Positions 12,661 through 16,464 of a DNA stretch of 64,000 bases are shown in pieces. Source of the DNA: Clostridiales bacterium. Its GTDB lineage: Bacteria > Bacillota > Clostridia > Lachnospirales > Lachnospiraceae. How positions within the stretch are numbered: position 1 is the first letter of the stretch; the number at the start of each line of letters is the position of its first letter. Position numbers and translations under genes: made by a program. The stretch lies in NCBI GenBank assembly GCA_029006795.1, contig JAQXGQ010000044.1, positions 1 to 64,000 on the forward strand. Reading direction: 5' to 3'. The notes under the pieces are model-generated. The model was given only the letters and a program-made list of their open reading frames with translations, did not search any database and was not told the origin of the DNA.

Positions 12661-13647
12661 TTAGCGGTTACGCTTTAAGATGCGGATATCCGCCCCAAAC
12701 AGCTTGATTATGGTATAATTGCTTGAAATACGGGAAAGAACACGTTCAGAATAAATGTCTGCAACCTGATTCATCCCCAGGTTTGTGGAAATAATCGTGG
12801 ATTTCTTTCTCAAAATCCGTTCATTTAAACATAAAAACAACTGTGACGAGGTAAAAGAGCTGCTAAGCTCTGTTCCTAAATCATCGATAATGAGCAAATC
12901 GCTTGTAAAAATATTCTGGTGAGTGGCAATGGCATCTTCATCCTTGTCAAACACACCCTTACTTAATATATCAAATAATTGAAAAGCTGTAAAATAAATA
13001 ACGGAATGTCCACTGTCAAGTAGCTCTTTGGCTACACAATTTGACAAAAAAGTCTTTCCAATGCCGGTGTCTCCATAAAAATAAAGGTTGGAGAAAGAAG
13101 CCGTGTCATCAAAATGATTGATGAAATCATGGCATTTTGCCACAGCATCCTTTACAGTGGCAAGGGAACTCATGCCGGTAGCCGGATTGATATCCTCATC
13201 AGAATAATAATCATAGGAAAAAGTCGAAAAATTCTCCCGGATTAAAGTATTCTTCAGATTAGACTGAGTGTAAACGAGGTCGATGGCAGCTTGTTTAAAA
13301 CAGTGGCAGCGTTTTCCGTTGATAAAACCAGTGTCTTTACAGTCCTTGCAGGTATATGCCGGTTCGAAATAATCATCGGGAAATTCATAGCGGGCTAATA
13401 AATCGCTGCGTTCTTTTCGGTAAGTGGCAATCTGCTCTTTTAAAGCGGACAGGGCAGTTTCATCTCCGTCTAGCATTTTTCTTGCCTGAGAGACGGAGGC
13501 AGAGGCAATGGCATCATCAATTTCTTTCAGACGCGGCACCTTTAAGTAGGCATGGCGAATGCGCTGCTCTAATTCATGTCGGTTTTTCAGTTGTCTCGCA
13601 TCATAAGTGCGGATAAGTTCGTCGTACTGCGAATTATTTAGTGACAT
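12661..13647 (-). CDS. dnaI: ATP-binding helicase loader (DnaC/DnaI-like)
   Basis: CxxC...CHC zinc motif, GDTGIGKTFLSNCVAKELL, LLIIDDLGTE; adjacent to DnaD-like gene. Confidence 0.88.
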   Translation of the reverse strand: MSLNNSQYDELIRTYDARQLKNRHELEQRIRHAYLKVPRLKEIDDAIASASVSQARKMLDGDETALSALKEQIATYRKERSDLLARYEFPDDYFEPAYTCKDCKDTGFINGKRCHCFKQAAIDLVYTQSNLKNTLIRENFSTFSYDYYSDEDINPATGMSSLATVKDAVAKCHDFINHFDDTASFSNLYFYGDTGIGKTFLSNCVAKELLDSGHSVIYFTAFQLFDILSKGVFDKDEDAIATHQNIFTSDLLIIDDLGTELSSSFTSSQLFLCLNERILRKKSTIISTNLGMNQVADIYSERVLSRISSNYTIIKLFGADIRILKRNR

Positions 13648-13662
13648 AAAAACCTCCGGAAA

Positions 13663-14772
13663 TTACTGCACATTTGTGGTGAGCAGCATCTTTTCTAGCT
13701 GGTCATAATCGTAGGAGCGCTGTTTAAAATTGTTAAACTTGTTTTTGGAAGTGTTCCCAGAAGAAACAAAAGTATTCTCTGAAGCCTTTTTGCTTTGATG
13801 CTCCTGCTCAAGTCTGTTGATATCGGAAATATTATGTACCTGCTGCTTTTTCCAGTTTTTTAAAATGGAGTCTGCATAAGGAAAACTGGGTTGGTGGACA
13901 GACTGAATGGTTCTTTCGCATGCTGCAGAAATAATTTCTAAGGAGAAGCCATAATCGGACTTCCATTTTTCAATAAAGTCTGTCTCGGAAGAGACTAAAT
14001 CTCTGCCGGAAATGCCAAAGGCTTTTTTGACAGCAAAATAAGCCTGACTGTGCAGCTGAGCTTCCCTCTTGGCATCTGTTACGGTTTTGATGTTCTGCTC
14101 TGCCCATTTTAGGGCAGTAGCCTGGATGTAACGAATACTGATATGTCCTTTGGTGACACAATACTCTACCAGGTACTCAATCAGGTCTGTGGAAAATCCA
14201 AGACCGTCATAAAGGTAAAGCAGGGTATCGATGTCTGTCGGGGACAGTGTACGACCTAAGTAGCGCTCTGCAATAAAGAGAAGTTCAGCAACCTGCTCCT
14301 TTTCCCGAAATGCTTTGATATCATCAGCGGAATAATTCTTTTTTTCGGGAATAGGAAACGATTGTGCATCATCATTTGTGATGGAAACGTTTTTATCCAC
14401 AGGGGCTTTTCCTGGTACGAAGGATTGTACCTTTGTATCCTCAGCTTGCAGGGAAAGCGCATTTTCTCCACGGGGGAGAGAATTTAACAGATAGACGCCG
14501 GTTAAATTCTGATTGTCATCGTACTCTAAACGAAGCAAATTCATACGCTCCCAGTAGCTTAGGGCGCGTTTGACATCTTTTTCGGTATGTTCAAACTTGT
14601 CCGCAATGGCAGAAAGAGAAACAGAGGCATCCGGTGCGTTCATCAGCCGCAGCAGATACAGATAAATCTTCACAAATTCGCCGTTGGCATCTGACATATA
14701 TTCATCAATAAAAATATTAGAAACACTAGTGGCAGAGCAATCACTGTCACTGTGTATAGCAATCTTCGACAT
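13663..14772 (-). CDS. DnaD-domain replication initiation protein (DnaB/DnaD-like)
   Basis: Winged-helix-like N-terminus and DnaD-like YLVEYCVTKGHISIRYIQATALKWAEQNIKT. Confidence 0.88.
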   Translation of the reverse strand: MSKIAIHSDSDCSATSVSNIFIDEYMSDANGEFVKIYLYLLRLMNAPDASVSLSAIADKFEHTEKDVKRALSYWERMNLLRLEYDDNQNLTGVYLLNSLPRGENALSLQAEDTKVQSFVPGKAPVDKNVSITNDDAQSFPIPEKKNYSADDIKAFREKEQVAELLFIAERYLGRTLSPTDIDTLLYLYDGLGFSTDLIEYLVEYCVTKGHISIRYIQATALKWAEQNIKTVTDAKREAQLHSQAYFAVKKAFGISGRDLVSSETDFIEKWKSDYGFSLEIISAACERTIQSVHQPSFPYADSILKNWKKQQVHNISDINRLEQEHQSKKASENTFVSSGNTSKNKFNNFKQRSYDYDQLEKMLLTTNVQ

Positions 14773-14823
14773 AAGGTATCAACCTACTTTCCATATTACG
14801 TAAGGTTCTTATTTACGCTCCAA

Positions 14824-14832
14824 ATTATAGCA
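14824..14832 (-). promoter_or_regulatory. extended -10 promoter for dnaD-dnaI operon
   Basis: Minus strand reads TGCTATAAT (TGn-TATAAT); weak -35. Confidence 0.5.
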
Positions 14833-14898
14833 CAGGAATTTTCAAAAGAGAAGTATATTTTTTGGTACAAATCCAGTAAAATCAAGGGATTCTAGAAA

Positions 14899-14916
14899 TG
14901 TGGATAATGTGGATAA
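14899..14916 (+). promoter_or_regulatory. two abutting perfect DnaA boxes
   Basis: TGTGGATAA TGTGGATAA, reverse complement of TTATCCACA. Confidence 0.85.
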
Positions 14917-15062
14917 AAAGTGGGTATTCTTTCTGCATAAAATTATGGAAACTAGTAAAATTGTTTTGGCGTCCAATGTTTCGTAGATTTTCTGAAAAGT
15001 GGGAAATGGGTTATGTAAACAAAAAAATCCACATTTAAAAGTTGAAGTTTTCCCCAATTAAA

Positions 15063-15080
15063 TGTGGATAATGTGGATAA
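15063..15080 (+). promoter_or_regulatory. two abutting perfect DnaA boxes
   Basis: TGTGGATAA TGTGGATAA directly downstream of the murC stop. Confidence 0.85.
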
Positions 15081-15081
15081 C

Positions 15082-16464
15082 TTATTGCCCTAAGAGATGT
15101 TCGCCGACAGTTACAATGTCTCCGGCTCCCATAGTTATCAACAAGTCGCCGTTCATACAATTTTTTAATAAAAATTTTTCTATTTCTTCAAAAGACGGGA
15201 AATAATGACAATCTGTTCCTGTTTTTTTGAGCTGTTCTAATAAATCCTTAGAACTGATGCCATAAGTATTTTTCTCACGGGCGGCATAGATGTCGGCGAG
15301 AACTACCATGTCAGCTAGGGATAAAACATCTGCAAAATCATTCAGAAAAGCCTTTGTTCTTGAGTAAGTGTGGGGCTGAAACACCAGTACTAGACGATTG
15401 TGCGGATAATTTTTTGCGGCTGTTAGTGTGGCGCGGATTTCCGTTGGATGATGAGCATAATCATCGATGATGGTAACTCCGTCCACAGTTCCTTTATATT
15501 GGAAACGACGGTTTGCACCGCCAAAAGCGGCAAGACCGGCAAGGATGAACTCTTTTGGAAGCCCTAAATCGAGGGAAAGGGCAATGGCAGCAAGCGCATT
15601 GGACACATTGTGCATTCCTGGGACATTTAGAGAAACCTTCATAACCGGTGTATCATGGTACATGGCAGTAAAGGTGCCGCAAGCCTTTTCGTTGAAAACA
15701 ATGTCGGCAGGGTGGTAATCGCAGGCATCGGAAAGACCAAATGTGATTACCTTTCTTTCTAAGCCGTCCGTAAGTTCACGATAGTTTTCAATTTCACCGT
15801 TTATGAGGATGACACCATCTTTTTTTGTATTGGATAAAAACTGGCGGAATGAATGACGGATATCGTGAATATCTTTAAAAAAGTCTAAATGTTCTGCTTC
15901 CACATTTAAGACGATACTGTATTTCGGGTAAAAATGCAGGAAACTATTGGTGTATTCGCATGCCTCGGAGACAAATATGTCGGACTTGCCCACTCTTAGG
16001 TTGCCATTTAATGATTTTAAAATACCACCTACTGTAATAGTAGGGTCTGCTTTTGCATTCAAAAGAATCTGACTAATCATGGAAGTAGTAGTCGTTTTTC
16101 CATGGGTTCCGGCAACGGCAATGGAGTTTTTATAATTGGCCATAATTTGACCAAGAAGCTCAGCACGGCTTATCATGGGGATACCTGCTTCTTTTGCACG
16201 CATAAGTTCAGGGTTGTCTTCGCAAATTGCAGCAGTATATACCACAAGGTCAATGTTCGGAGTAATATTTTCTGCTGTTTGTCCATAAAATACAGTGACC
16301 CCCATATGCTCTAAATGTCTCGTAAGTTCAGACTCTTTAGAATCAGATCCAGAGACAGTAAAATGTTCTTCTAAAAGAATTTCAGCAAGACCACTCATGC
16401 TGATACCGCCGATACCGATAAAATGGATATGTATCGGATTTTCAAAGTTAATATTATACATCAC
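15082..16464 (-). CDS. murC: UDP-N-acetylmuramate--L-alanine ligase
   Basis: HFIGIGGISMSGLAEIL, AGTHGKTTTTSMI, DDYAHHPTEIRATL. Confidence 0.97.
   Translation of the reverse strand: MMYNINFENPIHIHFIGIGGISMSGLAEILLEEHFTVSGSDSKESELTRHLEHMGVTVFYGQTAENITPNIDLVVYTAAICEDNPELMRAKEAGIPMISRAELLGQIMANYKNSIAVAGTHGKTTTTSMISQILLNAKADPTITVGGILKSLNGNLRVGKSDIFVSEACEYTNSFLHFYPKYSIVLNVEAEHLDFFKDIHDIRHSFRQFLSNTKKDGVILINGEIENYRELTDGLERKVITFGLSDACDYHPADIVFNEKACGTFTAMYHDTPVMKVSLNVPGMHNVSNALAAIALSLDLGLPKEFILAGLAAFGGANRRFQYKGTVDGVTIIDDYAHHPTEIRATLTAAKNYPHNRLVLVFQPHTYSRTKAFLNDFADVLSLADMVVLADIYAAREKNTYGISSKDLLEQLKKTGTDCHYFPSFEEIEKFLLKNCMNGDLLITMGAGDIVTVGEHLLGQ

Follow-up and report, generated by a model that had tools for sequence, protein, structure and literature searches.

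The question raised by this locus is why the short gap between murC and the dnaD-dnaI operon of a Clostridiales bacterium from the family Lachnospiraceae carries two tandem pairs of DnaA boxes, and what the initiator might do there. The locus lies in the window, i.e., the whole analysed stretch of 64,000 nucleotides (contig JAQXGQ010000044.1, positions 1-64,000) of the assembly GCA_029006795.1, which is a draft genome of 2.58 Mb in 181 contigs with 86.7% completeness. Based on the comparative genomics approach, we consider it fairly probable that the gap serves this helicase-loader operon as a DnaA-responsive control region, with looping like that proposed for incC of Bacillus subtilis. A sequence-only reading of the window had suggested that DnaA controls the supply of the loader, and this proposal gained from the conservation, orientation and promoter phasing of the boxes, all of which is comparative evidence.

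The murC-dnaD gap, its boxes and their conservation

The genes and elements of the locus are as follows:
12661-13647, minus strand: dnaI/dnaC-like helicase-loader ATPase gene (PRK06835, 379.5 bits, the best NCBIfam model)
13663-14772, minus strand: dnaD-like primosomal gene (TIGR01446 / PF07261), start at 14772
14393-14401, plus strand: isolated perfect DnaA box inside dnaD, a fifth perfect box
14824-14832, minus strand: extended -10 element TGCTATAAT of dnaD-dnaI, separated from the near edge of module B by 66 bp
14870-14891, minus strand: dyad motif AATCC-CTTGATTTTACT-GGATT, between module B and the promoter
14908-14916 and 14899-14907, minus strand: module B, an abutting pair of perfect DnaA boxes that precedes the dnaD promoter
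14943-14952, minus strand: GTTTCCATAA, a second motif related to GTTTACATAA, recurrent and strand-specific
15011-15020, minus strand: GTTTACATAA motif, which directly follows the terminator T-run and recurs in relatives
15021-15069, minus strand: murC rho-independent terminator (15058-15069 pairs with 15027-15038; T-run 15021-15027; fold -17.5 kcal/mol)
15072-15080 and 15063-15071, minus strand: module A, an abutting pair of perfect DnaA boxes that immediately follows the murC stop
15082-16464, minus strand: murC (TIGR01082, 508.8 bits), the gene upstream of the element, whose stop codon (15082) is the element's left border

The earlier gene calls of murC and of the dnaD-dnaI operon were confirmed by NCBIfam and Pfam profiles (TIGR01082, TIGR01446, PF07261 and PRK06835); the models of the DnaI and DnaC loaders also match the ATPase, more weakly. 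The distance from the murC stop to the dnaD start, which had been put at about 310 bp, measures 309 bp, and both genes lie on the minus strand. The gap holds four perfect TTATCCACA boxes as two abutting pairs, both on the minus strand; the 18-mer pair TGTGGATAATGTGGATAA occupies 14899-14916 and 15063-15080, the same two positions at which the gap carries TTATCCACATTATCCACA, and the box sequence and the coordinates that had been given for both pairs proved exact. The crowding of up to 20 perfect copies of TTATCCACA around dnaA at the oriC of relatives (L126, L323 and L327) supports it as the recognised DnaA box of these bacteria. The box inside dnaD is probably incidental. A 71-aa ORF at 14842-15057 was taken to be non-coding because the conserved parts of the gap are the boxes, the hairpin and the promoter, and a known RNA family or riboswitch was ruled out since no Rfam match was found. 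The murC-dnaD-dnaI genes are head-on to replication in seven of the nine genomes with both positions known (G215, G085, G035, G191, G102, G138 and G127), the exceptions being G046 and G185. Such an orientation is unusual for essential genes.

The genome-wide counts and pair enrichment that had been proposed as a check were clear-cut: the 18-mer is present in two copies in the draft genome, both in this gap, compared to none of its reversed pattern and 0.001 abutting pairs expected genome-wide. Single boxes number 82 in the genome versus 25 for the reversed 9-mer, and at this density 0.01 boxes would be expected in the gap, where four were seen (P(≥4) about 4e-10). A DnaA-box cluster is described as at least three boxes with an average spacing below 100 bp (as quoted in PMC7561715), and the gap has four perfect boxes within 182 bp, enriched over the genomic background. 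A chance origin of the boxes was ruled out by the genome counts, the reversed controls and the conservation in the family.

This conservation was followed among dnaD relatives gathered from 200 genomes (one per genus of Lachnospiraceae) and 31 congeneric genomes. The first 29 relatives to be examined (L004-L032) all showed the synteny murC-dnaD-dnaI. Of the 88 genera with a readable gap, 82 have one or more perfect boxes between murC and dnaD, and the pairs were kept, as the gap alignment suggested earlier would require, in 68 of the 88 (at most one mismatch per box) and in 29/29 congeneric gaps. A pair at most 12 bp from the murC stop, i.e., module A, was found in 57/88 genera and 28/29 congeneric species, and module B was found in 48/88 genera. 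Across the 88 genera, the gaps contain 204 boxes on the dnaD strand and nine on the other, compared to 0.7 in dinucleotide shuffles. When exact tandem pairs were counted throughout the genomes of 69 genera, 67 of 123 lay at most 1.4 kb upstream of dnaD, every one of them (67/67) on the dnaD strand. A scan of 85,462 species for the module A signature (box-box-N(8-36)-TGTGGATTTTT) returned at least 120 matches, and the record titles among the matches listed were Lachnospiraceae or vaguely named Clostridia. The spacer, for which 8-36 bp were allowed, was 28-32 bp in 120/120 of the matches listed and exactly 30 bp in 83/120. All 80 of those that were checked fell at the murC-dnaD junction, a count that includes matches with one neighbour cut off or incompletely aligned.

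Some genera have module A alone or a compact three-box array (L040, L043 and L053), and the two modules are not obligatory. The compact array was also noted in L074 and L083, besides L040 and L053, and in some of these the hairpin that follows murC is a different one (CAGGTTTTTATCCACAAAAAACCTG) and holds a box in its loop. In the 40 other Clostridia families, of which one belongs to the same order, so that the order depth is thinly sampled, perfect boxes upstream of the dnaD homologue were absent in 39, and murC lay upstream of it in 0/40. The sole case with boxes (L287, family f42) has two perfect copies 72 bp apart and a dnaD homologue without an adjoining murC.

Promoter phasing and candidate DnaA looping

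The extended -10 that had been assigned to dnaD-dnaI was located at 14824-14832 on the minus strand, and TGCTATAAT recurs on the dnaD strand in 63 of 116 gaps with no copy on the other strand. As is expected of a DnaA-regulated promoter, the boxes are kept in a fixed position relative to it: module B lies 82-87 or 93-95 bp from the extended -10 in most loci, and these distances are phased (R=0.80). The distances between modules A and B cluster near 77, 88, 99, 109, 120, 131, 142, 155, 166, 176, 189 and 199 bp. With one genome per genus (n=37), their best period was 11.2 (R 0.66), and a jitter null with a free period gave p of about 0.0005. The sequences are partly dependent, as gene neighbours inherit spacing, but the unique A-B distances alone were still phased (p about 0.002). 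The period was 11.15 between module A and the promoter and 10.45 between module B and the promoter, while no phasing at such periods was seen in the distances to the dnaD start codon (R 0.1-0.2). In vivo looping assays typically give apparent helical repeats of about 11. That both sites and the promoter are kept on the same face of the helix points to DnaA looping and suggests that the initiator may loop DNA to control its own helpers.

Further motifs recur in the gap. In the relatives, TTTACATAA was found on the dnaD strand of 32/116 gaps and never on the other, and TTTCCATAA was found in 8/116. A CTTGATTTT-type motif is present in 24 gaps, either 54-56 bp (20 loci) or 44-45 bp (four loci) upstream of the extended -10. 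The dyad has the form AAACCC-TTGATTTTACT-GGGTTT in relatives and is inverted in L107, which makes it a candidate operator of some protein; the copy at 14870-14891 is probably such an operator. A CodY-like sequence with a 13/15 match was noted by eye, and a Spo0A-type TTCGACA was set aside, being present in only 11 of the 116 gaps.

From these arrangements we infer DnaA occupancy, the formation of a loop and an effect on the promoter. DnaA would bind the two tandem pairs, all of which are oriented toward dnaD, module A being fused with the murC terminator and module B lying some 80-100 bp upstream of the dnaD start point. Bound to the same helix face, DnaA on modules A and B would make contact across a short DNA loop, the loop would tune the dnaD promoter to how much DnaA is present or to its ATP state, and the supply of the loader would thereby be coupled to initiation. 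When the start point is taken 7 bp after the -10, module B falls at about -95 to -105; this position, together with an extended -10 promoter that lacks a good -35, favours activation, and the predicted effect of DnaA on the dnaD promoter leans that way. DnaA could also repress the promoter by spreading from the loop.

The strongest competing explanation is that the boxes form a titration or DnaA-state locus, which soaks up or resets DnaA at a fixed distance from oriC, with any effects on dnaD being secondary. Four to six perfect boxes suffice for a high-affinity cluster, and the locus lies 0.04-0.23 of the genome length from dnaA in the closed chromosomes with both positions known. Moreover, deletion of six DnaA-box clusters in B. 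subtilis leads to early initiation (PMC5295017). However, titration needs neither phasing with a promoter, nor orientation toward dnaD, nor a fixed genic context, and all three are conserved; we regard it as rather unlikely as the explanation of the array, although the boxes could titrate DnaA alongside a role at the promoter. The strict orientation, the fixed anatomy of module A, the phasing and the incC precedent count for a DnaA-looping control region instead.

The terminator arm of module A

Directly 3' of murC, the hairpin consists of the arm ATCCACATTTAA (15058-15069), a loop and the arm TTAAATGTGGAT (15027-15038), followed by the T-run. The second box of module A is the 5' arm of this hairpin, and hence one DnaA box doubles as a terminator arm. 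The weaker inverted copy AAATCCACA (15025-15033), which had been read as a site of its own, is in fact the 3' arm. A consensus terminator scan missed this terminator because its loop limit is 8. A stem-loop, a T-run after the gene and compensatory changes were all observed, as in rho-independent terminators. In gaps that were picked without the pattern, the spacing from box 2 to the arm was 28-31 bp in 71 of 84. The inner stem pairs 1-3 were paired in 90-95% of cases compared to 40-51% in shuffles, and all six pair types occur among them. This inner part of the stem varies freely while its pairing is kept, so the hairpin is real.

It is improbable that DnaA on module A serves mainly as a roadblock or insulator, backing up murC termination and keeping murC transcription, often head-on to replication, out of dnaD. 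The boxes do abut the murC stop and are shared with the terminator, and the operon faces the fork head-on in 7/9 genomes, but such a role leaves module B, the A-B phasing and the phasing of module B with the promoter unexplained. Even less probable is that the boxes simply belong to conserved terminator or hairpin sequences and are unrelated to DnaA. One module A box is indeed the terminator arm and the stem covaries, yet the outer (box) arm stays TATCCACA while the inner stem varies freely. A third box, TTWTNMACA, 3 bp after box 2 is kept on the 5' side only, as would be expected for a protein site and unlike a stem; it was found in 19 of the 84 gaps picked without the pattern, which makes it common but not universal, and module A of the window itself has no good copy of it. 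This reading was rejected because module B in full (fold 0.0 kcal/mol) and box 1 of module A lie outside any hairpin, yet are equally exact. The hairpin/box element of module A appears to be under two selections at once, for stem pairing and for the box sequence. In the open literature that was searched, no description of a terminator doubling as a DnaA site was found, nor anything relevant on DnaA boxes in Lachnospiraceae or in terminators.

The resemblance of the tandem boxes to box 6/7 of B. subtilis incC might suggest a (second) origin of chromosome replication in the gap. This can be dismissed, since dnaA with oriC-type box arrays lies elsewhere in relatives, and in the closed congeneric genome G215 the locus, at 403 kb, is surrounded by GC skew of positive sign throughout. 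In this genome, dnaA is at position 22; every skew sample between 0 and 1.57 Mb was positive and those between 1.73 and 3.3 Mb were negative, so that the sign switches at dnaA and again somewhere from 1.57 to 1.73 Mb. Neither a skew minimum nor proximity to dnaA/dnaN, both expected of oriC, was found at the murC-dnaD gap. The earlier judgement that oriC was less likely here aligns well with these data, and dnaA itself is missing from the assembled contigs of the 86.7%-complete draft genome.

Relation to known DnaA systems and meaning for the family

At incC of B. subtilis, the action of a distal DnaA box on the abutting boxes 6/7 shows helical phasing, which was interpreted as a DnaA loop (Richardson et al. 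2019, PMC6669920). The murC-dnaD gap shares with the incC/BUS region of oriC the abutting same-strand pair whose orientation matters and a phased distal DnaA site. In contrast to incC, the putative target here is the promoter of an operon, which lies 403 kb from dnaA in the closed congeneric genome. A second tandem pair, joined to a terminator, takes the place of the distal box, and inspection by eye showed no DnaA-trio array. At DnaA-regulated promoters such as those of B. subtilis sda and others or E. coli dnaA and nrdAB, DnaA activates or represses transcription (PMC4447404, PMC8203912). These also have several boxes upstream of the promoter, whereas here the candidate target is the dnaD-dnaI loader operon, a strict two-module geometry is kept family-wide and the boxes are fused with the terminator of the upstream gene. 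The DnaA-box clusters of B. subtilis are likewise intergenic and outside oriC, but comparable phasing is not described there (PMC5295017). The E. coli datA and DARS are fixed DnaA-box loci away from oriC as well; they, however, act via IHF/Fis and nucleotide exchange or hydrolysis, without promoter phasing. The earlier suggestion that the dnaB-dnaI operon of B. subtilis is a DnaA target was not confirmed in the sources compared, where neither dnaD nor dnaB operons appear among the DnaA-bound loci that are named.

Exact tandem box pairs were also observed upstream of hpf, which encodes a ribosome hibernation factor, in several genera (L317 at 2023-2137, L318, L319, L320 and L326), and in three of them two pairs lie exactly 97 bp apart. 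In L321, L322, L324 and L325, a pair with a third box about 53 bp away lies upstream of a gene near mecA that encodes an NlpC/P60-SH3 hydrolase, its domains having been scanned in L324 and L325. In three closed genomes, this site is some 40-66 kb away from dnaA. The genome under study has two perfect boxes and one near-box between NlpC/P60 and WecG/TagA-type genes (G000:C25:17009-17078, L314), possibly its second DnaA-box cluster.

Taken further, the locus may be a family-specific, phased DnaA looping switch with the terminator as a docking site, an initiator-loader feedback circuit whose origin would date to the ancestor of Lachnospiraceae or close to it, at the time when murC became the neighbour of dnaD-dnaI; we see the case for this fuller reading as evenly balanced. 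In a study of C. difficile, the regulation of DnaA activity in clostridia was described as unknown (PMC7561715). For a dominant gut family, the control region that we propose amounts to a specific circuit that can be tested, in which the initiator would control the genes of its helicase loader, and the series of whole-turn spacings across genera forms a natural helical-phasing experiment that supports DnaA looping outside oriC. If this is true, the start of replication and the synthesis of the loader would form one feedback circuit.
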